This document shows positions 11,515-28,170 of a DNA stretch of 64,000 nucleotides, piece by piece. Below the pieces are notes generated by a model. That model saw only the letters and a list, made by a program, of their open reading frames with translations, did not search any database and was not told the origin of the DNA. Both the position numbers and the translations under genes were made by a program. The stretch is from positions 434,001 through 498,000 of the forward strand of contig AP018533.1 in the NCBI GenBank assembly GCA_003573975.1, read 5' to 3'. Every line of letters starts with the position of its first letter. Within the stretch, counting starts at the first letter, position 1. The DNA is from Clostridiales bacterium CCNA10. GTDB taxonomy: Bacteria > Bacillota > Clostridia > Oscillospirales > Oscillospiraceae.

Positions 11515-11620
11515 AAATAAAAAATCAAATCAGACAATTAAAAAATATTTACCCCCGCCGGAGAGGTGCAAACAGAAGCAGGATCCAGGCGGAGCGACTT
11601 TGGAAAGGAGCGGATTCAAT

Positions 11621-12704: not shown

Positions 12705-14120
12705 ATGGAAATCCTGGTACTGGAAGCGAGTACCACTTCTGCGAAGGCGATGCTGTACCATACGGAGGACCGGAGCTTTGAGGTCAAGGTCCGGGCCTAT
12801 ACCGGAAACTATGAGGACGTTACCATCCACAATGCGGAGAACGTCTATTTGGACATGGTATCTGTGGGGCGGGAGCTGTTGGACGGCCGGCAGGTGGATA
12901 TGATCGCCCTGGGCGGAACCTGGCACAGTCTGGTGCTGTGCGACGGGGCGGTGAAGCCGGTCACGCCGGTCTATCCCTGGTCCTATACCGGGGCCGCGCC
13001 GGTGTGCAAGCGTCTTCGCCATGATGCGGAATACGTCAGCCGCTACTATCAAAAGACCGGCTGTATGGTCAACGCCATTTACCCCTTCTTCAAGCTGATG
13101 ATGCTGCGGGAGCAGGGGTATGACCTGAGCAAATACATCATTATGGGCCAGGGAACCTATAACAACTACCGGCTGACCGGGCAGCGGGTGATCACCCCCT
13201 GCCTGGCCTCCGGAAGCGGGCTGCTAAACACCTGGACCAAGAGTTTTGATCCGGAGCTTATGGCTGAGCTGGGGATCCGGGAGGAACAGCTGAGCCGGCT
13301 GGTGGCTTATGACCAGACCTTCCCCCTCACGGAGGAGGCCGCTCAGGCGCTGGGTGTGCAGGCTGGGGTCCCGGTGATCCCGACCAACTCCGACGGCGGC
13401 CTGAATCAGGTGGGCACCGGCGCTGTGGCAGACGGAGTGATGACCTTCTCGGTGGGGACCAGCGGAGCGATCCGGCTGACGACTAGTAAGCCGGTGCTGC
13501 CTAAGGAGCCCAGCACCTGGTGCTACATGTCTCCTAAAAACTGGATGTCCGGTGCGGCGACCAACGGCTGCTGCAACTGCCTGGATTGGTTCAAGGAACA
13601 GGTGGGTATGTCCCGGCTCTCCTATGGAGAGCTGGAGCGGGGGATCAGCGACTGGGAGAATAACCCGGTGTTCCTCCCCTTCCTGTTCGGAGAGCGCTGC
13701 CCCGGCTGGAATGATGAGCGGGAGGGGGGCTTTGTACGGATCCTGCCCCGGCATAAGCTGCCGGACCTGTACCTGGCGGTGCAGGAGGGGATCCTGTTCA
13801 ACCTGTACCACTGCTATCGGATCCTGTCCGAGGTGAACGGCTGTCCCACCCATATCCGGTTCTCCGGCGGCATCCTCCACTCCGAGCAGTGGACCCAGAT
13901 GTGTGCGGACATCTTCCAGCGGGAACTGGAGGTCAACCGGAATGAGCATGGCTCCCTTCTGGGCGGCGCAGTCCTGGCGATGGAACTGCTGGGTGTGATC
14001 GATGACGCCTGTACCTATCAGCCTGAGGTGAGCCGCATCATCCGGCCCGATCCCGCAAGGGCGGAGTTTTATCAGAGAAAATTCCAGAGGTATCTGGAGT
14101 GCTACAACAAGGGAAATTGA
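12705..14120 (+). CDS. FGGY-family sugar kinase, gluconokinase-like
   Basis: A 471-residue carbohydrate kinase that phosphorylates a sugar or aldonate with ATP. The N-terminal half starts with the phosphate-1 strand (MEILVLEASTTSAKAM) and has a substrate segment around ALGGTWHSLVL. The C-terminal half has the ATP signature TFSVGTSGAIR near 245-255 and the adenosine motif FSGGILHSEQW near 386. The gene lies in the same locus as gnd, and the WHS-type substrate segment resembles gluconokinases, so gluconate is the favoured substrate; xylulose or another polyol-acid remains possible. ATG with AGGAGGCAGAAAAC upstream. It lies 67 bp after the alcohol dehydrogenase and 18 bp before the SDR. Confidence 0.82.
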   Translation: MEILVLEASTTSAKAMLYHTEDRSFEVKVRAYTGNYEDVTIHNAENVYLDMVSVGRELLDGRQVDMIALGGTWHSLVLCDGAVKPVTPVYPWSYTGAAPVCKRLRHDAEYVSRYYQKTGCMVNAIYPFFKLMMLREQGYDLSKYIIMGQGTYNNYRLTGQRVITPCLASGSGLLNTWTKSFDPELMAELGIREEQLSRLVAYDQTFPLTEEAAQALGVQAGVPVIPTNSDGGLNQVGTGAVADGVMTFSVGTSGAIRLTTSKPVLPKEPSTWCYMSPKNWMSGAATNGCCNCLDWFKEQVGMSRLSYGELERGISDWENNPVFLPFLFGERCPGWNDEREGGFVRILPRHKLPDLYLAVQEGILFNLYHCYRILSEVNGCPTHIRFSGGILHSEQWTQMCADIFQRELEVNRNEHGSLLGGAVLAMELLGVIDDACTYQPEVSRIIRPDPARAEFYQRKFQRYLECYNKGN

Positions 14121-14138: not shown

Positions 14139-14900
14139 ATGAAGCTGTTTGATTTGACTGGGCGGAAGGCCATTGTGACCGGCGCCACCCGCGGCTTGGG
14201 CCGCGGAATGGCCGAGGGCCTGATGGAGGCCGGCTGCGAGGTCGTAGTGGTGGGTTCCAGCGCCAGCGCCCTGAGCGTGGCGGAGGAGTTCCGGAGCAAG
14301 GGATTTGCCTGCCACGGGTTGGCGGTGGACCTGAGCGAGCGGGAGCAGAGAAGGGCGGGCTTTGCCCAGGCGGTGGAGCTGCTGGGCGGTCACCTGGACA
14401 TCCTGGTGAATGGGGCCGGCATCCAGCGCCGCCATTTCTGTGAGGAGTTCCCCATTGAGGATTGGGATGCTGTGCTGGAGGTCAACCTGACCGCCGCCTT
14501 CGACCTGTGCCAGATGGCCGGTCAGCAGTTCATCCGCCAGAACTCCAAGGGCAAGATCATCAATATTGCCTCGATGCTGAGTTTCTTCGGCGGCTATACC
14601 GTGCCCGCCTACGCAGCCAGCAAGGGCGGCGTGGCCCAGCTGACCAAGGCCCTGTCCAACGAGTGGACCGGGAAGGGAATCAATGTGAACGCCATCGCCC
14701 CCGGCTATATGGCGACTGAGATGAATACCGCGCTGCTGAACGATGAGGGGCGCAATACCGAGATCCTTGGCCGCATCCCCGCCCACCGCTGGGGCACCCC
14801 GGATGACATGAAGGGGCTGTGCATTTTCCTGGCCTCGGACGCCTCGGACTACATTGCCGGCGCGGTGATCCCCTGCGACGGAGGCTATCTCTGCAAGTGA
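14139..14900 (+). CDS. kduD: SDR oxidoreductase, 2-deoxy-D-gluconate/KDG dehydrogenase-like
   Basis: A 253-residue short-chain dehydrogenase. NAD(P)-binding TGATRGLGRG lies at 14-23. The catalytic set is Ser145 in NIASMLS, Tyr158 and Lys162 in YAASKGG. Segments such as NGAGIQRR, NIASMLSFFGG and IPAHRWGTPDD are characteristic of KduD and gluconate 5-dehydrogenase. KduD interconverts 2-keto-3-deoxygluconate and its 2,5-diketo form, while the related GntD/IdnO enzymes act on 5-ketogluconate; either suits this operon. AAGGAGCG precedes the ATG. Co-operonic with the kinase. Confidence 0.82.
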   Translation: MKLFDLTGRKAIVTGATRGLGRGMAEGLMEAGCEVVVVGSSASALSVAEEFRSKGFACHGLAVDLSEREQRRAGFAQAVELLGGHLDILVNGAGIQRRHFCEEFPIEDWDAVLEVNLTAAFDLCQMAGQQFIRQNSKGKIINIASMLSFFGGYTVPAYAASKGGVAQLTKALSNEWTGKGINVNAIAPGYMATEMNTALLNDEGRNTEILGRIPAHRWGTPDDMKGLCIFLASDASDYIAGAVIPCDGGYLCK

Positions 14901-14979: not shown

Positions 14980-16038
14980 ATGAAAAAGAGAGTTTTGGCG
15001 CTGCTGCTGGCAGGCGCCGCCGTGGCTTCCCTGGCCGCCTGCGGCTCCAGCGATTCCGGTGCGTCCGGAAGCGGTTCCGCTGCCGGAGGAGACGGCGAGG
15101 TCGTGGAGCTGGTCATGGGCAACGTGACCTCCTCCAGCGCGAAGGACGCTGTGACCGAGGTCCTGATCCCCAAGGTGGAGGAGTACTCCAACGGGACCCT
15201 CAAGATCGTCCACTTCCCCGACAACCAGCTGGGCAATGACGAGCAGTCCTTTGCCATGGCCCAGACCGGCGAGTGCGACATCGCCGTGGGCTCCACCTCT
15301 TCCGTGGCTACCACCTACAACGACCTGTATGTCTACGACGTCCCCTACCTGTTCCTGAACAAGCAGGAGGTCTATGACGTGGGCTTCAACGGCGAGACCG
15401 GCAAGGCCATCCTGGACGGCTTCTCCGAGTACGGCCTGAAGGGCCTGGCCTTCTGGGAGAACGGCTTCCGCAACATCACCACCACTGACAAGGACATCGC
15501 CACTGTGGCCGACCTGAGCGGCCTGAAGATCCGCACCATGGCCAATGAGATCCACCTGGAGGCCTGGAAGGCCATGGGCGCCAACCCCACTCCCATGGCG
15601 TTCGGCGAGCTGTTCACCGGCCTGCAGCAGGGCACGGTTGACGGCCAGGAGAACCCCCTGGGCATCATCACCGGCAACAAGTTCGAGGAGGTCCAGTCCT
15701 ACTGCACCCTGACCGAGCATGTGTACACCCCCTACTATGTGGTTATGAACCAGGCCAAGTGGGACTCCCTGACTGCCGAGCAGCAGGAGGCTCTGACCAA
15801 GGCCATCGAGGAGACCACCCAGCGCCAGTATGAGCTGTCCCAGCAGTATGAGGACGAGGCCATCGAGGTCATGGAGGGCGCCGGCTGTGCGGTCCGCACC
15901 CTGACCGACGAGGAGAAGCTGGGCTTCAAGGAGGCCGCCGACAAGGCCAACAGCCTGGAGGCCGCCAAGAAGATCATGTACAAGCCTGAGCTGGCCGATC
16001 AGATGGCCGCTGAGCTGGAAGCTTACCGCAACAAGTAA
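14980..16038 (+). CDS. dctP: TRAP transporter solute-binding lipoprotein (DctP family)
   Basis: A 352-residue extracytoplasmic binding protein. The signal peptide ends in the lipobox LAAC (Cys21), followed by a Ser/Gly linker, so it is lipid-anchored, as usual for Gram-positive TRAP receptors. The DctP fold is recognisable from LAFWENGFRNITTTDKDI, LKIRTMANEIHLEAWKAMGANPTPM (the Arg pins the substrate carboxylate) and the LQQGTVDGQENP segment. It works with DctQ and DctM just downstream. The surrounding genes predict an aldonate or uronate ligand. ATG with AGGAGGAAAG upstream. Confidence 0.95.
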   Translation: MKKRVLALLLAGAAVASLAACGSSDSGASGSGSAAGGDGEVVELVMGNVTSSSAKDAVTEVLIPKVEEYSNGTLKIVHFPDNQLGNDEQSFAMAQTGECDIAVGSTSSVATTYNDLYVYDVPYLFLNKQEVYDVGFNGETGKAILDGFSEYGLKGLAFWENGFRNITTTDKDIATVADLSGLKIRTMANEIHLEAWKAMGANPTPMAFGELFTGLQQGTVDGQENPLGIITGNKFEEVQSYCTLTEHVYTPYYVVMNQAKWDSLTAEQQEALTKAIEETTQRQYELSQQYEDEAIEVMEGAGCAVRTLTDEEKLGFKEAADKANSLEAAKKIMYKPELADQMAAELEAYRNK

Positions 16039-16119: not shown

Positions 16120-16617
16120 TTGAAAAAGATCCTGAAATGGCTGGATGACAATATAGAGCTCTATATTTGTGTATTCCTCATGTCCTTTATGACCCTGCTG
16201 GTGTTCGTGCAGGTGGTCATGCGCTATGTATTCAACAATTCCCTGTCCTGGTCGGAGGAGCTGGCCAGATACACCTTTATTTGGCTGATCTATATTGGCA
16301 TCAGCTACGGCTGCAAGCTGAGAAAGCACATCAAGATCGATGCGGCGCTTTACCTTTTCCCTAAAAAGGCGCGTCCCTATGTGGTCCTGTTGGGCGACAT
16401 CCTCTTCATCGCGTTTGCAGTTTATATCACCTACACGGGTTTCTTCTACTCCATGGAGCAGATCCGGTTCGATATGCGCTCCGCGGCGCTGAAGATCCCC
16501 TATCAGTACATCTATATGTCCACTGTGGTTGGCTTTGGTTTGGCGACGATCCGTGAGATCCAAACCATCATTTATCGGGTCAAGTGCCTGAAGAATGGGG
16601 AGGAGTATGACGGATGA
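16120..16617 (+). CDS. dctQ: TRAP transporter small permease (DctQ family)
   Basis: A 165-residue protein with four membrane segments. It carries the family segments RYVFNNSLSWSEELARYTFIWL and YGCKLRKHIKID in the first half, and a final transmembrane helix. DctQ pairs with DctM to form the membrane part of the TRAP transporter. The start is TTG with AGAGGAGGAAG six to eight bases upstream. Its stop overlaps the dctM start by four bases (ATGA), indicating translational coupling. Confidence 0.93.
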   Translation: MKKILKWLDDNIELYICVFLMSFMTLLVFVQVVMRYVFNNSLSWSEELARYTFIWLIYIGISYGCKLRKHIKIDAALYLFPKKARPYVVLLGDILFIAFAVYITYTGFFYSMEQIRFDMRSAALKIPYQYIYMSTVVGFGLATIREIQTIIYRVKCLKNGEEYDG

Positions 16618-17903
16618 CTGGCATTGTTTTGTTTGTGACCCTTTTGGTCTTCCTGGTGTTGAATGTTCCGGTCGGTATTGCTATCGGCCTTGCTTCCCTG
16701 GCGGCGATCACTACAAATCCCCGTATGACGGACAGCTTCATCGTCAGCCAGCTGATCAGCGGAAGCGACTCCTTCCCGCTGATGGCGATCCCTCTGTTCA
16801 TCCTGGCCGGCGAGCTGATGGCAGCCGGCGGTGTGTCCAAGCGGATCCTGAACGTCTGTAACGTGTTCCTGGGCCGTGTGACCGGTGGTTTGGCCATCGT
16901 CACTGTGGTGGTCTGTATGTTCTTTGCCGCAGTCTCCGGCTCCGGCCCAGCCACCGTGGCCGCGGTGGGCAGCATGGTGGTCCCCACCATGCTGGAAAAG
17001 GGGTACAGCAAGAGCTTCACCCTGGCCTGCGTGGCCTGCGCCGGCTGCATCGGCGTCATTATTCCGCCCAGCATCCCCATGGTCATCTATGGTACCTCCA
17101 CCGGTACCTCCGTGTCCACCATGTTCATGGCCGGCTTCCTGCCCGGCATCCTGATCGGTCTGGCGCTGTGCGCCCTGTGCTACTTCTATTGCAAGAAGAT
17201 GGGGTGGAAGGGCGATACCACCAAGTATACCGCTAAGGAGAAAATCGCCACTGTGGTGGACGCGCTCCCCGCGCTGATCGACCCCATCATCATCCTGGGC
17301 GGTATCTACGGCGGCTTCTTCACTCCCACTGAGGCGGCGGCTGTGGCTGCGGTCTATGCGCTGATCTGCGGCCTGTTCATCTACCGCGAGATCAATCTGA
17401 AGAATCTGTTCTCCACCATTGCCAATGCCTGCTCCACCAACGGAACCACCATGGTCATCATCGGCTGCGCCACCGCGTTCACCCGTATCCTGACCCTGGA
17501 GCAGATCCCCGCCCTGGTGAGCAACGCCCTGATCGGCATTTCTGACAATCCCATCGTCATCCTGCTGCTTATCAACCTGCTGTTGCTGTTTGTGGGCTGC
17601 TTCATGGATACGACTCCGGCCATGATGGTGCTATCCCCCATCCTGCTGCCTGTGGCCCTGGAGATGGGTCTGTCCGCCGTTCACTTTGGTATCATCATGG
17701 TGGTCAACCTGGCCATCGGCTTTATCACCCCGCCCCTGGGCATCAACCTGTTTGTAGCCGCCCGGGTGGGCAACACCTCCCTGGAGGTGGTGTGTAAGGG
17801 CATCGTGCGGTTCATCTTGGTGATGATCGTCTGTCTGCTGCTGATTACCTATATCCCCGCGATTTCTGAAGTTCTGCCGCGTATGACAGGTATGCTGAAA
17901 TAA
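16614..17903 (+). CDS. dctM: TRAP transporter large permease (DctM family)
   Basis: A 429-residue, very hydrophobic protein of normal length with about twelve membrane segments. It has DctM marks such as LNVPVGIAIGLAS, the SGSGPATVAAVGSMVVP stretch, PPSIPMVIYG and the late FITPPLGINLFVAARV. It is the Na+-coupled channel subunit. Translation is coupled to dctQ by a 4-bp overlap. It completes the TRAP system of the operon. Confidence 0.95.
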   Translation: MTGIVLFVTLLVFLVLNVPVGIAIGLASLAAITTNPRMTDSFIVSQLISGSDSFPLMAIPLFILAGELMAAGGVSKRILNVCNVFLGRVTGGLAIVTVVVCMFFAAVSGSGPATVAAVGSMVVPTMLEKGYSKSFTLACVACAGCIGVIIPPSIPMVIYGTSTGTSVSTMFMAGFLPGILIGLALCALCYFYCKKMGWKGDTTKYTAKEKIATVVDALPALIDPIIILGGIYGGFFTPTEAAAVAAVYALICGLFIYREINLKNLFSTIANACSTNGTTMVIIGCATAFTRILTLEQIPALVSNALIGISDNPIVILLLINLLLLFVGCFMDTTPAMMVLSPILLPVALEMGLSAVHFGIIMVVNLAIGFITPPLGINLFVAARVGNTSLEVVCKGIVRFILVMIVCLLLITYIPAISEVLPRMTGMLK

Positions 17904-17954: not shown

Positions 17955-18037
17955 CTGTCTGTTGATATGGGTGTGTTCTGAAGCGGAGAGAAGGGGTTTG
18001 GGATGGGACACCCCTTGCGTTGGAAGGAGTCCGAGCG

Positions 18038-18952
18038 ATGGTTTACACACTGTTCAGCCTGATGTTCAAGGTATTCTTTGTGGCGGCCGCGGCCTATCTT
18101 CTGCGCCGGAGGGGGGCGCTGACGGCACAGGATCAGAAGAGCGTCACCAATGTGCTGATGCGCTTTGTGGTATATTTTACGGTAATCATGTCCTCTCAGC
18201 AGGACTTTTCTCTGAAAGCGGCCAAGGCGATCCTGGTCACGGCCATCTATGCGGTCCTGTTCTTTGCGGTCTTTATCCCGGCGTCCATCTTTCTCAGCCG
18301 CCGGCTGAAGCTGGAGGAGGCGAAGCGGAGGGTTTTTGTCTGTTCCCTGGTGTTCTGCAACATCACCTTTATCGGCTATCCGATTTTACAGGAGCTGTAC
18401 GGGAATATCGGCCTGCTGTGCGCCATTGTGTTCAGCATGATCTATAACGTGGTGTTCTACTCCTGGGGGATGTTCTATTTGGGAGACCGGGGGCGCGGGA
18501 GCCTCCGCTCCATTCTGACCAACAAGATCGCCCTGGCGTCTGTGCTGGCGCTGGTCATGTACTTCCTGCAGATCAAGATCCCGGAGCCCCTGTACAGCAC
18601 CTTCAACGGGATCGGAGCGCTGACGATGCCGCTGTCCATGATCATCATAGGGTGCAGTCTGGCGGACTCCGGGATCTGTAAGATCCTGCGGGACCGGACG
18701 CTCTACCTTCCCACGGTGCTGCGGATGGCGGTCATGCCGGCTGTTGTCTGCCTGGTGATGCGGCTACTGGGGGTGGATCCGGAGATCATCCGCATCAGCA
18801 CCGTGATCGCGGCCCTGCCATCCGGGACGATGACCAGCATTGTGGCGGCGGACTACGGCTGCGCGCCGGACTACGCGGCGAATATCATGGTGCAGACCAT
18901 GCTGGCCATGCTGGCTGCCCTGCCCGCCTGGGTCTTCCTGGTGGGGATGTAG
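18038..18952 (+). CDS. AEC (auxin efflux carrier) family transporter
   Basis: A 304-residue membrane protein with about ten hydrophobic segments in two similar halves. It shows AEC features including the early LLRRRGALTAQDQKSVTNVLMR loop, FIGYPILQELYG in the middle, LTMPLSMIIIGCSLAD, and a final LPSGTMTSIVA segment. Bacterial members move malate, malonate and other carboxylates. As the second transporter of this locus it may import another sugar acid or export a product. The ATG at 18038 has AAGGAG eight bases upstream; the frame runs on to 18020 without a ribosome site. Confidence 0.85.
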   Translation: MVYTLFSLMFKVFFVAAAAYLLRRRGALTAQDQKSVTNVLMRFVVYFTVIMSSQQDFSLKAAKAILVTAIYAVLFFAVFIPASIFLSRRLKLEEAKRRVFVCSLVFCNITFIGYPILQELYGNIGLLCAIVFSMIYNVVFYSWGMFYLGDRGRGSLRSILTNKIALASVLALVMYFLQIKIPEPLYSTFNGIGALTMPLSMIIIGCSLADSGICKILRDRTLYLPTVLRMAVMPAVVCLVMRLLGVDPEIIRISTVIAALPSGTMTSIVAADYGCAPDYAANIMVQTMLAMLAALPAWVFLVGM

Positions 18953-19015: not shown

Positions 19016-20164
19016 ATGGTGATCACAAATGTAACGACATATCTGGTCCGTCCCCGTTGGGGATTTGTCAAGATCGAGACGGACGGCGGCCTCACCGGCT
19101 GGGGCGAGGCGGTGATCGAGGGCAAGGCCGCCACCGTCCTGGCCTGTGTGGAGGAGATGAAGGACTATCTGCTGGGGGCCGACCCCATGCGGATCGAGGA
19201 CCTTTGGAATGTGCTGTACCGGGCAGGCTTCTACCGGGGCGGCCCCATTTTGATGAGCGCCATGGCCGGGATCGACCAGGCGCTCTGGGATATCAAGGGG
19301 AAGCATTTCAACGCCCCTGTCTATCAGCTGATGGGCGGTCCCTGCCGGGACCGGATGCGGGTGTACTCCTGGATCGGCGGGGACCGGCCCAGCGATGTGG
19401 CCAAGGCGGCCAAGGAAAAGCAGGAGGCCGGGTTCACCGCCATTAAGATGAACGGCACCGAGGAACTCCAGATGGTGGACAGCTATGAGAAGATCGACGC
19501 GGTGCTGGAACGGGTGGCCTCCATCCGGGAGGCGACCGGAAAATATTTCGGCATCGCAGTGGACTTTCATGGCCGGGTCCACAAGCCCATGGCCAAGATC
19601 CTGGCCAAAAAGCTGGAGGAATTCGATCCCATGTTCATTGAGGAGCCTGTCCTCTGTGAGCAGATGGAGGATTTCAAGGAGATCGCGGCGGCCTGTAATG
19701 TGCCCATCGCCACGGGGGAGCGTCTGTTTTCCCGCTATGATTTCAAGCGCCTGCTTCAGGCCGGAGGAGTGGACATCATCCAGCCAGACCTGTCCCATGC
19801 AGGCGGCATCACGGAAGTGAAAAAGATCGCCTCTATGGCGGAGGCCTATGACGTTGCGCTGGCGCCCCACTGCCCCCTGGGCCCCATTGCCTTGAGCGCC
19901 TGCCTCCAGGTAGACGCCACCTGCTATAACGCCTTCATTCAGGAGCAGAGCATGGGCATCCACTACAACGCCTATCACGAGCCGCTGGACTATATCCTCA
20001 ACAAGGAGGATCTGGCCTTCCACGATGGCCATGTGGAGCTTCCAAAGCGGCCCGGCCTGGGTGTGGAAGTCAACGAGGCGCTGGTGCTGGAAGAGGCTCA
20101 GACGCCGCACAGCTGGAAAAATCCGGTTTGGCGGCACAAAGACGGCTCAGTTGCGGAGTGGTGA
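19016..20164 (+). CDS. dgoD: D-galactonate dehydratase
   Basis: A 382-residue enolase-superfamily enzyme that dehydrates D-galactonate to 2-keto-3-deoxy-D-galactonate. It matches remembered E. coli DgoD in length and in nearly every diagnostic block: [48 protein letters not shown] and the terminal [11 protein letters not shown]. The Mg2+ ligands fall at the same numbers (Asp183, Glu209, Glu235), as do the acid/base pair His185 and His285. ATG with AAAGGAGGG upstream. Together with the aldolase (23.9 kb) and kinase (24.6 kb) it gives the whole De Ley-Doudoroff galactonate route. It is five bases from the next gene. Confidence 0.96.
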
Positions 20165-20169
20165 GTGCG

Positions 20170-21666
20170 ATGGAGCGAGACGCGATTCGGATCCATCCCC
20201 AGGACAATGTGGCGGTGGCTCTGCGGCCTTTGGCCGAGGGAGAGGCCGTGTCTGTGGATGGACAGGCTGTGCGGATCCAAGAGGAGATCCCCTTTGGCCA
20301 CAAGGTGGCTCTGACCGATCTGGCGGACGGGGCCATGGTGGTCAAGTATGGGGCCCAAATCGGCCATACCACCCAGGCTGTGCCATCGGGAGCGTGGCTG
20401 CACAGCCACAATCTCAAGACCAATCTGGAGGGACTGCTGGACTATCAGTATGCCCCGGCGGCGCCGCGGCAGCCGGAGCCTGGGAATGGAGCGGACACCT
20501 TCCTGGGCTACTGCCGTCCAGACGGCCGGGTGGGGACACGCAACGAATTGTGGATCATTCCCACGGTCTCCTGTGTAAACCGGACGGTGAGCCGCATGGC
20601 GGAGGAGGCCAGACGCCAGGGAATTCAGGCAGGGGACGGGATCTTTGCCTTTCCCCATAACGCCGGCTGTTCCCAGCTGGGGGATGACTTTGAGACGACC
20701 CAGAAGCTGCTGCGCAATTTGGTGAAGCATCCCAACGCAGGCGGTGTGCTGCTGGTGAGCCTGGGCTGTGAAAACAACGACCTGGACCACTTCCTGCCTG
20801 TGCTGGGGGACTATGACCGCCGCCGCATTCGGACCTTGGTGACCCAGGATATGGAGGGGGACGAGATCGAGGCCGGCCTGTCCCTGATGCGGGAGATCGC
20901 GGCCGTGATGGCGGAGGACCGCCGGGAGGAGTGTCCTGCCAGCCGGCTGGTGCTGGGCTTCAAGTGTGGAGGCTCTGACGCCTTCTCCGGCATCACAGCC
21001 AATCCCCTGTGCGGACGGATCGCCGAGCGGGTGACCGATCTGGGGGGGACGGCGGTGCTGACCGAGGTGCCGGAGATGTTTGGGGCAGAGACCCAGCTGA
21101 TGAACCGGGCAGATTCAGTGGATACCTTCCAAAAGATCGTCCATATGATAAACTCCTTTAAAGAATACTATATCCGCTATGACCAGCCTATCTATGAAAA
21201 TCCCTCTCCGGGTAACAAGCGGGGTGGGATCACGACGCTGGAGGAGAAATCTCTGGGGTGTATCCAAAAGGGTGGTCACGCGGTGGTGACCGACACCCTG
21301 GAGATGGGGCAGGTGTGCTGTAAGCCCGGCCTGAATCTGATGACCGGGCCGGGGAATGACAGTGTATCCATCACCAACCTGCTGGCCAGCCAGGCACAGG
21401 TGCTTCTGTTTACCACCGGGCGGGGCAACCCGCTGGGCACCGCGGTCCCGACCATCAAGATCGCCTCCAACAGCGCCCTGTTCCACCGGAAGCCGAATTG
21501 GATGGACTTCAATGCCGGGGCGGTGTTGGAGCGGGGATCGATGGACGAGCCGGCCCGGGAGCTGTGGCAGTTGGTGCTGGACGTGGCCTCCGGCCGGGTC
21601 AGCACCCGAAATGAAGAAAACAACGATCGGGAGATCATGCTGTTTAAAGACGGTGTGATCCTGTGA
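20170..21666 (+). CDS. uxaA: UxaA/GarD-family sugar-acid dehydratase (altronate dehydratase-like)
   Basis: A 498-residue protein. An N-terminal SAF domain (about 1-75, beginning IRIHPQDNVAVALRPLAEG) is joined to the large iron-dependent dehydratase domain, with GYCRPDGRVGTRNELWIIPTVSCVN near residue 110 and VLGFKCGGSDAFSGITANP near 265. UxaA converts D-altronate to 2-keto-3-deoxygluconate; GarD and related enzymes use galactarate. The true substrate here is uncertain. The start at 20170 gives the normal UxaA N-terminus, and an upstream extension would overlap dgoD. Conserved Cys and His residues for the metal site are present. Confidence 0.87.
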   Translation: MERDAIRIHPQDNVAVALRPLAEGEAVSVDGQAVRIQEEIPFGHKVALTDLADGAMVVKYGAQIGHTTQAVPSGAWLHSHNLKTNLEGLLDYQYAPAAPRQPEPGNGADTFLGYCRPDGRVGTRNELWIIPTVSCVNRTVSRMAEEARRQGIQAGDGIFAFPHNAGCSQLGDDFETTQKLLRNLVKHPNAGGVLLVSLGCENNDLDHFLPVLGDYDRRRIRTLVTQDMEGDEIEAGLSLMREIAAVMAEDRREECPASRLVLGFKCGGSDAFSGITANPLCGRIAERVTDLGGTAVLTEVPEMFGAETQLMNRADSVDTFQKIVHMINSFKEYYIRYDQPIYENPSPGNKRGGITTLEEKSLGCIQKGGHAVVTDTLEMGQVCCKPGLNLMTGPGNDSVSITNLLASQAQVLLFTTGRGNPLGTAVPTIKIASNSALFHRKPNWMDFNAGAVLERGSMDEPARELWQLVLDVASGRVSTRNEENNDREIMLFKDGVIL

Positions 21667-21680
21667 TGAGGTGAAGCAAT

Positions 21681-22973
21681 ATGGCGCTGAGTACGAACAA
21701 AGAGGGAAATGTTGTGACCAAGCTGGCCTCCGCGACGGAGCTGCCCAGAATGGTGAAGGTCCGCCAGAAGCTGGACCACAGCCACATTGAGCCGGAGGAG
21801 ATCCCGGCTCTGGTACAGCGGGAGCTGGAGCCGATGCGGTCCCGGATCCGAGCGGGGATGCGGGTGGCCATTACCTGCGGGAGCCGGGGGGTGGCCAATA
21901 TCGCCATCATTACCCGGGCTATCGTGGATTTTGTGAAGTCCTGTGGGGGAGAGCCCTTTGTGTTCCCGGCCATGGGTAGCCACGGGGGAGCCACCGCGGA
22001 GGGCCAGCTGGAGATCCTCTGCGGCTATGGGGTGACAGAGGAGTTTCTGGGCTGTCCCATCCTCTCCTCCATGGAGGTGGTCCAGGTGGGCGAGACCGAG
22101 GAGGGGATGCCCGTCTTTGTGGACCAGTATGCATACGAGGCGGATGGGGTCATCCTGTGCGGCCGTGTGAAGGCCCATACCGCCTTCCGGGGCCCCTATG
22201 AGAGTGGGATCCTGAAAATGGCGGTCATCGGAATGGGTAAGCAGCACGGGGCAGAGCACGTCCATCAGGACGGCTTCTCCGACCTGGGCCGGCTGCTGCC
22301 CATGATCGCCCGGGTGATCTTTGACAAGGTGAATATCCTGGGGGCGGTGGCCGTGGCGGAGAACGCCTTTGACCAGACCTGTATCCTGGAGGGCCTTTTG
22401 AAGGAGGAGATCTTTGAGAATGAGCCTGATATTCTGCGCCGCTCCAAGGAGCGGCTGGGCAAGATCTTCTTCAACGACATCGATGTGCTGGTGGTGGACC
22501 GGCTGGGCAAGGACATCAGCGGCGACGGCATGGACCCCAATATCACCGGCCGCTATGCGGTGCCCTATATGAAAAGCGATAAAAAGATCCAGCACATCGC
22601 GGTACTGGATCTGACAGAGGAGACCCACGGGAACTGCAACGGGCTGGGTCTGGCCGATGTGACCACGCGCCGGGTGGTGGAGAAGATCGACGTGGACTGC
22701 ACCTATCCCAATGTGGTGACCTCCACAGTGCTGTGCACCCCCAAGATCCCCCTGTTTACCCACACAGACCGGGCGTGCATCCAGATCGCGCTGAAAACCT
22801 GTAACTACATCGACCGGGCGAATCCGCGGATCGTCCACATCCGGGATACCATGCGTCTGGAGGAGATCGAGATCTCTGAGGGGATGCTGGAGGAGGCCCG
22901 GGCCAATCCCATGATCGAGATCCTGGACGAGCCCCGGGAGTGGCCCTTTGATGCGGAAGGGAATCTCTGGTAA
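21681..22973 (+). CDS. LarA-like nickel-pincer racemase/epimerase (DUF2088)
   Basis: A 430-residue member of the lactate-racemase superfamily, whose proteins use a nickel-pincer nucleotide to move a hydride at C2 of 2-hydroxy acids. The DUF2088 domain shows GSHGGAT (His101), RVKAHT (Lys164, His166) and ESGILKMAVIGMGK (Lys179). Lys179 and His195 are 16 residues apart, the spacing of the cofactor lysine and nickel histidine of Lactobacillus LarA (Lys184, His200). It sits between the UxaA-type dehydratase and regulator 2, so the substrate is probably an aldonate rather than lactate, making this a possible C2 epimerase. The cofactor-building genes larB, larC and larE are not in the window. ATG with GAGGTGAAG upstream. 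Confidence 0.8.
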   Translation: MALSTNKEGNVVTKLASATELPRMVKVRQKLDHSHIEPEEIPALVQRELEPMRSRIRAGMRVAITCGSRGVANIAIITRAIVDFVKSCGGEPFVFPAMGSHGGATAEGQLEILCGYGVTEEFLGCPILSSMEVVQVGETEEGMPVFVDQYAYEADGVILCGRVKAHTAFRGPYESGILKMAVIGMGKQHGAEHVHQDGFSDLGRLLPMIARVIFDKVNILGAVAVAENAFDQTCILEGLLKEEIFENEPDILRRSKERLGKIFFNDIDVLVVDRLGKDISGDGMDPNITGRYAVPYMKSDKKIQHIAVLDLTEETHGNCNGLGLADVTTRRVVEKIDVDCTYPNVVTSTVLCTPKIPLFTHTDRACIQIALKTCNYIDRANPRIVHIRDTMRLEEIEISEGMLEEARANPMIEILDEPREWPFDAEGNLW

Positions 22974-22985
22974 CGGGCAGGAAGA

Positions 22986-23018
22986 AGCAGGTCCGAAGCC
23001 GGCGGCTTCGGACCTGCT
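22986..23018. terminator. Terminator between convergent genes
   Basis: A perfect 15-bp inverted repeat (22986-23000 and 23004-23018) with a three-base loop, between the LarA-like gene and convergent regulator 2. No strong T-run, but its position and strength support termination in both directions. Confidence 0.7.
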
Positions 23019-23041: not shown

Positions 23042-23737
23042 TCACAAAATGCTGTCGATTTTGAGAATGGAAATGATGACGCGCTTGGAATTGGCCAGGT
23101 GGGTGGTCAGGGACTGACGGGCCCCCTCCTCGTTCCCGTTGAGCAGATGCTCCATGATCTCCTGGTGCTCCTGGATCCCGGTGAGCAGCCGCTCTTTGGA
23201 CTGCTTGTTATAGACATAATTGATATAGAGAAATGGGTTGAGGAACTGATAGAGGTCCATCAGCAGCTTGTTCCCGGAGCACTTGATGAGCAGATGGTGA
23301 AAGCCGATGTCGTACTCATAGTTGACCAGATAGTCATCAAGAGGGGAATCCGGGGTCAGCCGGTGCACGATCTCCAGGTTGTCCTCCACATTGCGGCGCA
23401 GCGCCAGGCGCATGGCCTCGTTGGTGTTCAGAGTCATAATGACATTGGAGATATAATAGCTCTCCAGCATGAGCCGCAGGTCGAAGGTCTCCTCGCACAG
23501 GTTGATATTCAGCGATTTGACCCGCATTCCCTGGCGGGGGAAATGCTCGATGATATTCTCAGAGGCCAGGCGGTTGAGCGCCAGTCGGATGGGCGTCTCG
23601 CTGGCTTCGTATCGGGTGGACAGCTCCCGAATGTTGATTTTTTCTCCCGGCTTGAGCTGGTTGGTGATGATGTCCCGGCGGATGCGCTCATAGACGCTTT
23701 CTGCCAGCGTGATTTTGGATGTGGATCGTTCCATCAT
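23042..23737 (-). CDS. GntR-family regulator, FadR/FCD subgroup (regulator 2)
   Basis: A 231-residue transcription factor with an N-terminal winged helix (INIRELSTRYEASETPIRLALNRL, in about residues 34-57) and a C-terminal helical FCD domain (from FDLRLMLES near 88). Its layout is close to regulator 1, and the two probably arose from one ancestor. It is divergently placed before the aldolase-kinase-dehydrogenase operon, so it is the natural repressor of that operon and of itself. AGGAGG lies five bases before the first ATG and eight before the second (23734); the second may be the true start. Confidence 0.9.
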   Translation of the reverse strand: MMERSTSKITLAESVYERIRRDIITNQLKPGEKINIRELSTRYEASETPIRLALNRLASENIIEHFPRQGMRVKSLNINLCEETFDLRLMLESYYISNVIMTLNTNEAMRLALRRNVEDNLEIVHRLTPDSPLDDYLVNYEYDIGFHHLLIKCSGNKLLMDLYQFLNPFLYINYVYNKQSKERLLTGIQEHQEIMEHLLNGNEEGARQSLTTHLANSKRVIISILKIDSIL

Positions 23738-23858: not shown

Positions 23859-23913
23859 AAAATAAAGATAGGGCATAAATTCAATCGAAAAATTTTGGAA
23901 AGAAGGATGAATG

Positions 23914-24564
23914 ATGTCTCAGGCGGTATTGGAGAAGATTTTGGAAGGCAAGATCATTGCAATTGTGCGCGGGATCCCCAGCACAAAGATCGTGGGTCTG
24001 GCTCAGGCGCTGGAAAAGGGCGGCGTCAACTGTATCGAGGTGACCTTTGACCAGAGCAGTGAGGAGAAGGCGAAGGATACCCTGGCGGCCATCCGGGCGA
24101 TCAAGGACGCGCTGGGGGACAAGGTCTGTGTGGGCGCCGGGACCGTGATGAGCGTGGATCAGGTGCATCAGGCCGTGGAGGCCGGCGCGGAGTATATGAT
24201 CTCTCCCAACGTGAACGAGGCGGTCATCCGCGAGACCAAGAAGCTGGACAAGGTCTCCATCCCCGGCGCTATGACGCCCACAGAGGCGGCCTTTGCCTAT
24301 GAGTGCGGGGCGGACATTGTGAAGCTGTTCCCCGCCGGGCTGCTGGGTGCGGCCTACATCAAGGCGGTGAAGGCCCCCCTGAAGCACATTCCGGTGACCG
24401 CGGTGGGCAATGTCAATGTGGAAAACTGTGCGGAGTTCCTGAAGGCCGGCGCCGTGGGCGTGGGCGTGGGCGGAAGCCTGGTCAGCGCCAAGCTGGTGGA
24501 CGAGGGCCGCTTTGACGAGATCACCGCAACCGCCAAGGCGTATGTGGAAGCTCTGGCCCGCTGA
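23914..24564 (+). CDS. dgoA: 2-keto-3-deoxy-6-phosphogalactonate/gluconate aldolase
   Basis: A 216-residue class I aldolase of the Eda/DgoA family. It cleaves 2-keto-3-deoxy-6-phospho sugar acids into pyruvate and glyceraldehyde-3-phosphate. The Schiff-base Lys137 sits in DIVKLFPAG, the general acid/base Glu42 in CIEVTFD, and the phosphate/carboxylate Arg19 in IVRG. The second ATG (23914) is seven bases from AGAAGG; the one at 23911 is only four away. It is followed directly by the 2-keto-3-deoxygalactonokinase gene, which favours the galactonate isomer, but such aldolases may take both epimers. Normal length. Confidence 0.92.
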   Translation: MSQAVLEKILEGKIIAIVRGIPSTKIVGLAQALEKGGVNCIEVTFDQSSEEKAKDTLAAIRAIKDALGDKVCVGAGTVMSVDQVHQAVEAGAEYMISPNVNEAVIRETKKLDKVSIPGAMTPTEAAFAYECGADIVKLFPAGLLGAAYIKAVKAPLKHIPVTAVGNVNVENCAEFLKAGAVGVGVGGSLVSAKLVDEGRFDEITATAKAYVEALAR

Positions 24565-24584
24565 ACGGACTGGGAGTGTGGGAA

Positions 24585-25583
24585 GTGAAGAAGGAATATA
24601 TTCTGTATTTTGACTCCGGCACCTCCAATACCCGGGCCTACTTGCTGGACCGTGAGTTCCGGATCTGTGATTCGGCCAAGCGGGCGGTGGGCTCAAAGGA
24701 CTCCGCCATTGCGGGGACCAACCGTGTGCTCATCGAGGGGATGAAGGCCCTCTATGACCAGGTGCTGGCGGCCAACTCTCTCACCGACGGGGATGTGGAG
24801 GCCATCTATGCCTCCGGCATGGTGACCTCTCCATATGGACTGAAGGAGGTCCCCCATTTGGTTCTGCCCATGACCGTGCGGGATTTCGCGGACAGCCTGT
24901 ATCCCTTCCACGAGGACACCTGCTTCCACCGGGATATTTTCCTGGTGCCCGGCTTAAAGACCCTCAGCGACGACTTCTCCTTTGTGAACAATCTGCGGGG
25001 TGAGGAGATCGAGATCATCGGCGCGCTGGAGGAGCTGAAGGCGGAGCGGGATGTAGAAAATGTCGTGATGCTCATGCCCGGCTCCCATACCCACGGGATC
25101 TACATTCAGGGAGATCAGATCACGGGGATCATCTCGAATTTTACGGGGGAGCTGTTTTACGCGCTGAAGCAGGATACCATCCTCTCGCCGGTGCTCACCT
25201 CAGACAGCCTGGAGCTGGATGAGGCGATGGTGCGCAAGGGGATCGAAAATCTGGAGCGCTTCGGCTTCAACCGGGCCCTCTACATCTGCCACGCCATGCG
25301 GATCTTTGAACAGGGAACTCCTCAGCAGCGTCTCTCCTATGGAGAGAGCGTCATCATGGGCGGGGTGCGCCAGTCTCTGGAGTACTACTGTGAGCACTTC
25401 TGGAAGGAGTGCCGGACGGTGGCCCTGGTGTCCGATGAGTTTATGTACCGCCTGTTCTCCATGATCCTGGAGGGCAGCCGGTATATCGACCGGATCATCT
25501 GGATGCCTATTTCGGACGGAAAGAGCTATGGGGTCAGTGGACTGAAAAAAATCGTGAGCTTAAAAGGAGAACGCCATGAGTAA
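24585..25583 (+). CDS. dgoK: 2-keto-3-deoxygalactonate kinase
   Basis: A 332-residue kinase of the DgoK family. It phosphorylates 2-keto-3-deoxygalactonate at O6 before aldolase cleavage. The N-terminal FDSGTSNTRAYLLD is the phosphate loop of the ASKHA fold. FVPGLKTLSDD-like segment near 125, VMLMPGSHTHG near 165 and FTGELFYALK near 185 are typical of the family. GTG at 24585 is eight bases from GGGAG; an upstream GTG at 24576 is an alternative. Its end overlaps the following dehydrogenase by eight bases. Confidence 0.9.
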   Translation: MKKEYILYFDSGTSNTRAYLLDREFRICDSAKRAVGSKDSAIAGTNRVLIEGMKALYDQVLAANSLTDGDVEAIYASGMVTSPYGLKEVPHLVLPMTVRDFADSLYPFHEDTCFHRDIFLVPGLKTLSDDFSFVNNLRGEEIEIIGALEELKAERDVENVVMLMPGSHTHGIYIQGDQITGIISNFTGELFYALKQDTILSPVLTSDSLELDEAMVRKGIENLERFGFNRALYICHAMRIFEQGTPQQRLSYGESVIMGGVRQSLEYYCEHFWKECRTVALVSDEFMYRLFSMILEGSRYIDRIIWMPISDGKSYGVSGLKKIVSLKGERHE

Positions 25584-26529
25584 GAAAGTTTTGATTACCT
25601 CCCGGTCCTTTGGCAAGATCAGCAATGAGCCGCTGGACATCCTCACCGGGGCCGGATTTGAAGTTACCATGAAGGGCAAGGACTTTGACCAGGCGGAGTT
25701 TGAGGCCATGATCCCCGACTACGACGCCCTCATCATCGGCGCGCATGAGTTTCCGGAGGCGGTCATGGAGCGCTGTCCCAAGTTGAAGATCATCTGCAAG
25801 CACGGAGCGGGCCTGGATAATATCCATCTGGAGAAGGCCAAGGAATTGGGGATCGCCGTGTGCAACGTCCCGGGGACCAACTCCAATGCGGTGGCGGACC
25901 TGACCTTCGGTCTGATGCTGGCGGTGGCCCGGAACATCGTCAGCACCAACCGCTGGGTCCATGAGGGCCGCTGGCAGGCCGCCATCGGTGTGGATGTGTG
26001 CGGGAAGACCCTGGGCCTGATGGGCTTTGGGGCCATCGCCAAGAATGTGGCCCGCCGTGCCAGCGGCTTTGGCATGAAGGTGCTGGCCTATGATCCCTAT
26101 GTGAAAGAGCTGCCGGAGGAATTTCAGAGCTATGTCACCCTGTGCGGTGAGAACGAGGTCATCAGCGGCTGTGATTTCCTGTCCCTGCACCTTCCTTTGA
26201 ATGATGAGACCCGGAATATGATCTCCGCGCCCCAGCTGGCCAGCATGAAGGCGGGCGCCTATGTGATCAACGCAGCCCGGGGCGGGATCGTCAATGAGAA
26301 GGACCTGTATGAGGCCCTGGTCTCCGGCCATATTGCCGGCGCGGCTATGGATGTGTCTGAGGTGGAGCCCATGGCGGAGGAAAATCCTCTGCGGACCCTG
26401 GACAATGTGATCATTACGCCGCACATTGGGATGTATTCCAAGGAGGCCATCGGCGCGGTGAGCCTGATCTGTGCCCAGAACGTCGCCGCCTGTGCGGCGG
26501 GGGCGGAGCTGAAGTTCCAGGTGGTATGA
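25576..26529 (+). CDS. D-2-hydroxyacid dehydrogenase, 2-ketoaldonate reductase-like (copy 2)
   Basis: A 317-residue NAD(P)-dependent dehydrogenase, paralogous to the gene at 9941. It shows the substrate loop KHGAGLDNIHLEKA, a nucleotide loop variant GLMGFGAIAKNV (Gly-rich, about 148-159), catalytic Arg in NAARGGIVNEKDL, Glu in EVEP and His in ITPHIG. ATG with AAAAGGAGAACGCC upstream, overlapping dgoK by eight bases, so the two are translationally coupled. It probably reduces a 2-keto sugar acid or its precursor; the two copies may serve different substrates. Confidence 0.85.
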   Translation: MSKKVLITSRSFGKISNEPLDILTGAGFEVTMKGKDFDQAEFEAMIPDYDALIIGAHEFPEAVMERCPKLKIICKHGAGLDNIHLEKAKELGIAVCNVPGTNSNAVADLTFGLMLAVARNIVSTNRWVHEGRWQAAIGVDVCGKTLGLMGFGAIAKNVARRASGFGMKVLAYDPYVKELPEEFQSYVTLCGENEVISGCDFLSLHLPLNDETRNMISAPQLASMKAGAYVINAARGGIVNEKDLYEALVSGHIAGAAMDVSEVEPMAEENPLRTLDNVIITPHIGMYSKEAIGAVSLICAQNVAACAAGAELKFQVV

Positions 26530-26672: not shown

Positions 26673-26783
26673 GGCCTCAAGATGCCCTAGCTGCCGCTTT
26701 ACTGAGGCAGACAGCGGCATGGATATGCGCCAGGACGCGTCCCGGCGGAACTTTAAGGGAACATTTTGAGAAAGGCAGAGAAC

Positions 26784-27362
26784 ATGATCGATCTGATTTT
26801 ATTGGCGGCGGGCCCCGCCCGCCGGTTTGGACAGGAGCAGCTGCTGGGAGATGCAGGCGGTGCGCCCCTGTACCGCCGCGCCTTTGAGGCGGCCCGCCAG
26901 GCGGCGGATGCCATGATGGGCCTGCGGGTGCTGGTGGTGACGGCGAAGGGGGTGCTGGACGCCCCGATCCGGGAGTTCGGCTTCAACAAGGTGGTGGTGC
27001 CGGAAAACCGCCCCCTCAGCGCCTCGGTGGCGGCGGGCGCCCGGGCAGCCCGGTCCGGGGCAAGCCGGTGCTTTCTGCCCTGCGACCACGCAGGCTTCAA
27101 CGGGGAACTGCTCACCGGCTTTTTGCAGGGGTACATCCTCAGCGGCCGTACCCTGGGGCGGGCCCGCTGCGGCGGACAGGAGGGGCAGCCCACCGTGTTC
27201 GCCCCCTTCCTGCTGCCCGGGCTGCTGGCCCTGGAGGGGGAGGCGGACGGCTCCGCCCTGTTCCAGGGGCGGGAGAACCTGACCTTCTACTATGACGTCC
27301 CCGCCGAGGCTCTTCGGGAGGGTTTTGCCGGGCAGGGGGAGGCATCCGGTGAAGATCATTGA
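26784..27362 (+). CDS. MobA-like nucleotidyltransferase
   Basis: A 192-residue protein with the MobA/MocA-like NTP_transf_3 fold. It starts LILLAAGPARRFGQEQLLG, the nucleotide loop of enzymes such as molybdenum-cofactor cytidylyltransferase and CTP:sugar-phosphate transferases. The usual loop lysine (GxxK) is Gln here (GQEQLL), so activity may be altered. An acidic PCDHAGF segment near residue 100 could hold the metal ion. It overlaps the next gene by 14 bp. No xanthine dehydrogenase or molybdopterin genes are nearby, so the substrate is open. The ATG start is preferred over an upstream TTG at 26766. Confidence 0.7.
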   Translation: MIDLILLAAGPARRFGQEQLLGDAGGAPLYRRAFEAARQAADAMMGLRVLVVTAKGVLDAPIREFGFNKVVVPENRPLSASVAAGARAARSGASRCFLPCDHAGFNGELLTGFLQGYILSGRTLGRARCGGQEGQPTVFAPFLLPGLLALEGEADGSALFQGRENLTFYYDVPAEALREGFAGQGEASGEDH

Positions 27363-28170
27363 CGCCCACCTGCACCTCTTTCCGCCGGAGCCCCGCACCG
27401 ACGCCATGGCGGAGGCGGTGGGGCACCAAAACTCCACGGAGCATCTGCGGAAGGTCTACGGAGAACTGGGGATGGTCCACGGGGTGGTCATGGGCAACCG
27501 CACTTTGGAGACGGGGCGGCACTGCTATCCGGAGGATCTGTTCCACTATTGCGTGGGCCTGGACAGCCTGGTGCTGGACCGGGGACGTTCCATCCCGGAG
27601 GACCTGCCCGACCAGGTGGAGGAGCACCTGAAGCGGCCCTCCTGCTGTGGGGTGAAGCTGTATCCGGGGTACAACCGCCTGTGGCTGACCGACCCGGTGT
27701 ACGACCCCATCTACCGCCTGGCGGAGCGCTATGACAAGCCTGTGGCCATCCACACCGGCCTGACGGCCTATGCCCGGGCCCATTTGAAGTACAGCCACCC
27801 CCTGGCTCTGGATGAGGCGGCGGCGGACCACCCCCGCACCCGGTTCGTCATGTGCCACTTCGGGAACCCCTTCCTCCAGGAGGCCGCCGCCGTTCTGGGG
27901 AAGAACCCCAACGTCTGCGCGGACCTGTCCGGCCTGCTGGAGGGCCGGGTGGAGCTGGACCGCTATTTTGAGGAGCAGGCGGGCTACGCCGGACTGCTGA
28001 AAAGCTGGCTGGCCAGCACCTGCGCCTGGGACCGGATCCTGTACGGGACGGACTGGCCCATCGTCAATCTGGGGGAGTACATCGGCTTCATTCAGCGCCT
28101 GGCGCCGGAGCGGCACTGGGAGGCGGTGTTCTTTGAAAACGCGAACCGGGTCTACGGCCTGGGACTGTGA
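27349..28170 (+). CDS. Amidohydrolase-2 family metal-dependent hydrolase
   Basis: A 273-residue TIM-barrel protein of the Amidohydrolase_2 group (hydrolases and decarboxylases). It begins VKIIDAHLHLF, supplying the HxH metal pair, and has a mid barrel His in VAIHTGLTAY, FVMCHFGNP with a further His, and the late Asp in LYGTDWPIV. The GTG start has GGGGGAGG six bases before it and lies inside the end of the nucleotidyltransferase gene, so the two are coupled. The longer frame to 27292 is unlikely. Substrate unknown; lactone or carboxylic-acid decarboxylation are known in the family. Confidence 0.85.
   Translation: MKIIDAHLHLFPPEPRTDAMAEAVGHQNSTEHLRKVYGELGMVHGVVMGNRTLETGRHCYPEDLFHYCVGLDSLVLDRGRSIPEDLPDQVEEHLKRPSCCGVKLYPGYNRLWLTDPVYDPIYRLAERYDKPVAIHTGLTAYARAHLKYSHPLALDEAAADHPRTRFVMCHFGNPFLQEAAAVLGKNPNVCADLSGLLEGRVELDRYFEEQAGYAGLLKSWLASTCAWDRILYGTDWPIVNLGEYIGFIQRLAPERHWEAVFFENANRVYGLGL

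Follow-up and report, generated by a model that had tools for sequence, protein, structure and literature searches.

Among described members of the LarA family, the systems closest to the protein considered here are LarA of Lactiplantibacillus plantarum (structures 5huq and 6c1w), the D-gluconate 2-epimerase GntE of Corynebacterium glutamicum and Thermotoga maritima (LarA groups 19/20), and the single-histidine LarA-like enzymes of Blautia wexlerae and Streptococcus plurextorum (9q3j, 9q3k), in which an asparagine replaces the second catalytic histidine and which, according to the available part of PMC12611868, also lie near carbohydrate genes. The key LarA residues are named R75, H108, H174, K184 and H200 in PMC11770544, whose available text lists R75, K184 and H200, with Asp72 not among them, as important for cofactor binding, and gives E, V, A and H as the GntE residues at four substrate positions of LarA. 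For the assayed LarA enzymes covered by the accessible portion of PMC7583248, gene context was not always predictive of activity. Group 22, an already known and named family, does not appear in Table 1 of that paper, and neither that table nor the available results of PMC11770544 reports an assayed member.

Family assignment, active-site residues and predicted fold

The window is a 64,000-nucleotide stretch of the genome of Clostridiales bacterium CCNA10, and the gene studied here is an intact open reading frame within it, starting with ATG and encoding 430 amino acids (Table 1). An earlier note, made from the letters alone, had described the product as a DUF2088 protein of the LarA family with Lys179 and His195 in the LarA spacing; both residues are confirmed, 16 apart, and membership of the LarA superfamily is supported by sequence, residues and fold. 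The protein matches the NCBIfam model NF052515, 'nickel pincer isomerase, group 22', over its full length with 533.6 bits (cut-off 400). Its score against Pfam Lar_N also exceeds the cut-off (33.5 versus 23.3 bits) and is modest, so we regard it as a far branch.

A single-sequence search of the PDB returned LarA-like entries at E values of 0.054–0.062 only, and the only PDB sequence hit of a group-22 profile was a repeat protein matched by chance. The earlier note had proposed structure prediction as a check. For an AlphaFold model built from a 30-row alignment (mean pLDDT 92.6), the top 12 PDB entries all belong to the LarA family, with Z scores of 19.3–21.4 over 297–327 residues, the next entry, which is unrelated, falls to Z 6.6, and rows 1–18 of the Foldseek list are all LarA-family chains. 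As modelled, the protein has the LarA two-domain fold, matching the single-histidine enzymes at Z 21.1–21.2, LarA of L. plantarum at Z 19.6–19.8 (12–13% identity) and 4nar, the T. maritima protein Q9WYS3, which we take to be GntE, at Z 19.8 with only 12% identity.

A profile alignment of group 22 against five fetched LarAs identifies Arg69, His101, His166, Lys179 and His195 as the equivalents of the key LarA residues (Table 1), and all of them are invariant in the 68 group-22 proteins compared. These 68 are drawn from 74 distinct over-cut-off places, the window included; five places (G442, G432, G476, G506:C1 and G472:C5) were not fetched, the group-22 gene L087 (genome G062), which is interrupted by a stop codon, was excluded from the alignment, tree and residue counts, and one of the 68 proteins, L121, is truncated at the edge of its contig. 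The LarA motif was present in five of nine loci scanned, where the lysine-histidine spacing is also 16 and where K179 and H195, in the numbering of their own alignment, are invariant. Through this alignment to other LarAs, the tether lysine, the nickel histidine and the two catalytic histidines of L. plantarum LarA all find equivalents in the window protein, which, in contrast to the single-histidine enzymes, keeps the second catalytic histidine. The earlier note had not mentioned His101 and His166, and the two strengthen the LarA case.

The protein also departs from its described relatives. Its loop between His166 and Lys179 is three residues longer than that of LarA, an insertion that the alignment of His166 spans, and the sequence after His166 reads Thr-Ala-Phe, so that the E and V of GntE are absent at the two loop positions compared, out of four. 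Asp72 of LarA, a ribose contact, aligns to a gap, and group 22 has no conserved aspartate there; since Asp72 is not among the cofactor-binding residues given in the available text of PMC11770544, we do not count it as defining.

Gene neighbourhood and candidate substrates

The sugar-acid setting and adjoining dehydratase described in the earlier note are real, as judged by Pfam and NCBIfam matches (Table 1), and they contrast with the lactate context of L. plantarum LarA. The gene order is tight: the ATG of the group-22 gene lies 14 bases past the stop of the fused dehydratase gene, which in turn starts 5 bases past the stop of the galactonate dehydratase gene, taking ATG 20170 as its start (TTG 20128 is an alternative, and family searches began at 20173). 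Against TIGR03248 the fused dehydratase scores 289.2 bits, under the cut-off of 730.85. Between the end of the gene run and the convergent gntR gene, the 61 bases at 22970–23030 fold with −33.8 kcal/mol (z −4.03; none of 200 shuffled sequences reached that stability), and the hairpin within them is a probable terminator shared by the run and gntR. No operator-like word common to the gntR/aldolase intergenic stretch and eight other stretches was found beyond A/T-rich matches. Downstream of the sugar-acid genes lie a small frame that by eye looks nucleotidyltransferase-like (26766–27362) and an amidohydrolase-2 protein (27292–28170).

Table 1. Features of the window around the group-22 gene, with the active-site codons.
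Feature	Position	Strand	Evidence
Zinc alcohol/sugar dehydrogenase	11600–12637	+	
FGGY sugar kinase	12705–14120	+	no NCBIfam equivalog over its cut-off
Short-chain dehydrogenase, KduD-like	14139–14900	+	297 bits, under cut-off 338.85
TRAP transporter DctP, solute-binding	14980–16038	+	
TRAP transporter DctQ	16120–16617	+	
TRAP transporter DctM	16614–17903	+	
Membrane transport protein, Mem_trans family	18020–18952	+	
Galactonate dehydratase DgoD, enolase superfamily	19016–20164	+	NF010624 670 bits, cut-off 311; also in L133
Fused galactarate/altronate-type dehydratase, SAF + GD_AH	20170–21666	+	GD_AH_C 314.8 bits; adjoins group-22 gene upstream
Group-22 LarA homologue, nickel-pincer isomerase family	21681–22973	+	NF052515 533.6 bits; model pLDDT 92.6, Z 19.3–21.4
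Codon Arg69 = LarA Arg75 equivalent (cofactor contact)	21885–21887	+	profile alignment; invariant 68/68; codon checked
Codon His101 = catalytic LarA His108 equivalent	21981–21983	+	profile alignment; invariant 68/68; codon checked
Codon His166 = catalytic LarA His174 equivalent	22176–22178	+	profile alignment; invariant 68/68; codon checked
Codon Lys179 = LarA Lys184 equivalent (covalent cofactor tether)	22215–22217	+	profile alignment; invariant 68/68; codon checked
Codon His195 = LarA His200 equivalent (nickel ligand)	22263–22265	+	profile alignment; invariant 68/68; codon checked
Strong hairpin, end of gene run versus convergent gntR	22986–23018	.	fold of surrounding 61 bases
GntR/FCD regulator	23042–23737	-	convergent with gene run
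KDPG/KHG-type aldolase	23911–24564	+	
2-keto-3-deoxygalactonokinase family kinase	24576–25583	+	Pfam DGOK 120.9 bits; no NCBIfam match
D-isomer-specific 2-hydroxyacid dehydrogenase	25576–26529	+	

In the four nearest fetched relatives, L133, L138, L098 and L134 (76%, 71%, 70% and 61% identity to the window protein), an orthologue of the fused dehydratase (53–68% identity) adjoins the group-22 gene, and enzyme and dehydratase thus form a conserved pair in the window's branch; L133 also carries the galactonate dehydratase and a TRAP permease. Across group 22 the surroundings are varied. No Pfam family exceeds 5 of 86 immediate neighbours, which were picked by a simple open-frame rule and may include some false frames, and GD_AH lies within 3 kb in 10 of 67 sampled loci and in 11 of 80 named loci, the latter being the best 80 of at least 583 relatives, with Bacilli over-represented. 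The two sets are not fully separate, as L135, L143 and L195 are the same DNA as the sampled L095, L068 and L099; the first of these pairs ties family genome G455 to a record of Pseudoflavonifractor sp. MSJ-37 (Oscillospiraceae, Clostridia). With neighbours so varied and GD_AH so seldom near, one substrate for the whole of group 22 is unlikely, and different branches probably serve different sugar acids.

In an annotated Sporomusa record, group 22 is followed by two UxaA genes. At L216, L141, L148, L165 and L178 it stands beside genes for PdxA and a four-carbon acid-sugar kinase (DUF1537), neighbours that suggest C4 sugar acids as the substrates of that branch. The partners in Bacilli include a glucuronate isomerase at L208 (647 bits, cut-off 387), short-chain mannonate oxidoreductases at L154, L208 and L175 (265.9, 277.5 and 289 bits, of which one passes the cut-off of 281), and gluconokinase-like FGGY kinases at L154 and L175 (640 and 478 bits, neither passing the cut-off of 648.55). 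Among the named loci, again the best 80 of at least 583 relatives, 30 have a short-chain dehydrogenase (SDR) of the mannonate oxidoreductase kind no more than 3 kb away, 16 an FGGY kinase and six a glucuronate isomerase. Assembled from several loci, these partners suggest a route in Bacilli from glucuronate through fructuronate to mannonate, which the group-22 enzyme would convert to gluconate on the way to 6-phosphogluconate.

Gene context thus speaks for an aldonate C2 epimerase, as the earlier note had proposed, here one feeding dehydratases or kinases; its reaction is likely of the type that GntE, from a different group, also represents. Of the substrate pairs named in the note, gluconate/mannonate fits the Bacilli clusters and galactonate/talonate has no direct support. 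A (2S,3R) end appears to be required by the dehydratases for altronate and galactarate; talonate has no such end, and for this reason the D-galactonate/D-talonate pair is not favoured for the window. We found no literature tying lactate racemase/DUF2088 proteins to altronate dehydratase (UxaA) or gluconate operons.

Cofactor genes in the source genome and across genomes

The source genome is a single contig of 3,558,314 bases and is 99.36% complete. In it, LarC gave no match, and LarE gave three sub-cut-off matches only, which we rejected as two GMP synthases and one NAD synthetase. LarB gave a single sub-cut-off match (37.9 bits, cut-off 175), rejected as a 172-residue frame matched over positions 75–208 only; we take this frame to be PurE because of its size and because of a match in 13 of 14 control genomes. 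A second Lar_N match was rejected as another LarA, the 379-residue frame reading, by eye, as DUF362 with ferredoxin-type cysteines. Separately, L004 (1072–2385; G000:C1 near 1942599) encodes a second GMP-synthase-like protein of 438 amino acids whose glutamine-amidotransferase half is mostly missing, with 75 residues matching the N-terminal model at 52 bits; beside this protein, a normal GuaA is found in L003.

The earlier note had held that larB, larC and larE must lie elsewhere in the genome, and it had set the search for them beforehand as a refutation test. That expectation failed: searches of this one-contig, nearly complete genome turned up neither larB nor larC nor larE. We do not accept their absence outright as a refutation, because group 22 clusters with larE, larB and larC in other genomes and because genomes that lack LarC still encode proteins with the complete set of active-site residues; we read it as a cofactor-supply puzzle and not as a disproof.

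The clustering is seen most directly in annotated records, where the order is uxaC, group 22, SDR, larE, larB and larC in Paenibacillus cellulositrophicus, altronate dehydratase, group 22, one hypothetical gene, larB and larC in Loktanella, and altronate dehydratase, group 22 and larC in Sulfitobacter. Among the named loci (the best 80 of at least 583 relatives), 15 have larE on the same strand at a distance of up to 3 kb, and within 6 kb there is a larB in 15 and a LarC1 in 14; 18 of the 80 have any lar gene nearby and most have none. Nearby lar genes were seen in two of the 67 sampled loci (L086 and L074), and there were none in the stretches fetched around group 22 of Sporomusa, Rubrobacter and Haloarcula. 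Because group 22 is linked to larE, larB and larC in these other genomes, we conclude that the group as a whole is a putative nickel-pincer group.

We also compared the occurrence of group 22 and of the cofactor genes across genomes. In a class sample of 393 genomes, group 22 exceeds its cut-off in 21 and LarC in 173. Sixteen of the 21 carriers have LarB, LarC and LarE over their cut-offs and the same five are without all three, an all-or-none pattern that is a good internal check that the absences are real. LarC occurs in 16 of these 21 genomes versus 157 of the 372 others (Fisher p 0.0028, uncorrected for relatedness). In a family sample of 300 genomes, 34 hold group 22 and 156 hold LarC, and the corresponding comparison, 21 of 34 versus 135 of 266, is not significant (p 0.28); the source genome sits in both samples, and the 33 further family genomes were tested for LarC alone. 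Overall, LarC is absent from 17 of 54 group-22 genomes, three of which (G000, G468 and G681) are assembled in one or two contigs. LarA-motif proteins were also seen in two LarC-less genomes of the class, G250 and G311 (L028 and L029), which are only 90–91% complete, so that this may be a gap. In 28 class genomes every group-22 match stays below the cut-off, most of these proteins being LarA-type by length; nine of the 28 lack LarC.

Proposed reaction, alternatives and cofactor supply

Taken as a whole, we lean, with reservations, towards reading the protein as an aldonate C2-epimerase of LarA group 22 that obtains its cofactor by an undescribed route. The enzyme would convert a hexonate or a comparable aldonate into its C2 epimer and back, with material entering via the TRAP transporter, the epimer product going to the adjoining dehydratase or dehydratases, and the dehydration product passing to the 2-keto-3-deoxy kinase and the aldolase. 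By analogy with LarA, Lys179 would hold the nickel-pincer nucleotide and His195 would ligate nickel, while His101 and His166 would alternate as base and acid during transfer of a hydride from C2 to the cofactor and its return to the other face. We infer the reaction, the class of substrate and the use of the cofactor in the source organism. Since the source genome is without LarB, LarC and LarE, the cofactor would have to come by a route not yet described, either from neighbours or made by unrelated enzymes. Against this reading stand the missing larB, larC and larE, which read plainly would mean no cofactor, the non-significant tie between group 22 and LarC in the family sample, the variety of neighbours across group 22, the loss of Asp72, and the assayed LarA enzymes whose context did not predict their activity.

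The same missing genes would be explained if the enzyme worked without the nickel-pincer nucleotide, its invariant lysine and histidines performing other acid/base or metal chemistry on a sugar acid and the cofactor being used only in some members of group 22. The LarC-less share of group-22 genomes agrees with this, as does the gene tree: a quick maximum-likelihood tree built from the 68 proteins has 16 changes of LarC status, as many as shuffled labels give (mean 16.1), which means that LarC-less carriers are scattered over the tree, and there is a weak similarity to DUF362 (20.2 bits, below the cut-off of 24). However, the equivalents of the cofactor-binding LarA residues R75, K184 and H200 are invariant whether or not the genome has LarC, 18 of the 68 proteins, from 16 LarC-less genomes, keeping every key residue; the group is linked to larE, larB and larC in both Bacilli and Alphaproteobacteria; and 7 of the 17 LarC-less genomes hold another LarA-type protein (Lar_N above 100 bits), so other LarA-type proteins pose the same puzzle. 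We consider cofactor-free chemistry rather unlikely.

Alternatively, the gene could be a passenger, acquired or retained without the cofactor pathway and inactive in the source strain, as the absence of larB, larC and larE would allow and as the scattered LarC status, which fits horizontal movement, might indicate. One genome provides a direct case: in the LarC-less G062, the group-22 gene (L087, G062:C78) has an in-frame stop, which speaks for the passenger reading there. The window gene, by contrast, is intact and closely follows its conserved partner gene, and the full retention of key residues in LarC-less genomes likewise argues against disuse. dN/dS could be estimated for 12 of 14 close pairs and ranges from 0.02 to 0.37, values that are rough, the synonymous distances being high; it is 0.049 for L096/L097, a LarC-plus/LarC-minus pair of one genus, and for the window gene it is 0.15 versus L133 and 0.37 versus L098, the latter not especially low, with saturation versus L138. 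Rough as they are, these estimates give no apparent sign of free drift among group-22 pairs, and we think it unlikely that the window gene is a passenger. Lastly, a racemase acting on a 2-hydroxyacid such as lactate, malate or glycerate and having no tie to aldonates, as other LarA groups described in the available text of PMC11770544 would allow and as the nearby 2-hydroxyacid dehydrogenase gene might hint, is very improbable given the sugar-acid neighbours in the window, in its nearest relatives and in Bacilli, and the scores of only 22–27 bits against the NCBIfam malate and LarAH10 models.

In a host that lacks LarB, LarC and LarE, an epimerase of this kind might receive imported cofactor or cofactor from an unrelated synthesis, might work by cofactor-free chemistry, or might be dormant. 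The reverse case, larB, larC and larE without larA, is mentioned in the available text of PMC11796402; LarA without larB, larC and larE is not discussed in the accessible portions of PMC11796402, PMC11770544, PMC7583248 and PMC9283937, and may exist in print elsewhere. No title on nickel-pincer salvage stood among the cofactor-salvage literature matches listed. We know of no uptake route for the cofactor. As a tentative idea, which we regard as possible though doubtful, the nickel-pincer nucleotide or a late precursor may be a shared community cofactor, for example in the gut, such that non-makers retain LarA-family enzymes in fully conserved form and charge them with cofactor from neighbours via an uptake system not yet known, or from unrelated synthesis.

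The wrong claim about the cofactor genes is where the main interest lies. Group 22 occurs widely (21 of 393 class genomes and 34 of 300 family genomes), and the Bacilli clusters offer a ready substrate, mannonate to gluconate, as a step of a putative glucuronate pathway that would combine a C2-epimerase and a gluconokinase. Together, the gap in larB, larC and larE (5 of 21 class carriers) and the gap in LarC (17 of 54 genomes) make cofactor supply in non-making hosts directly testable.
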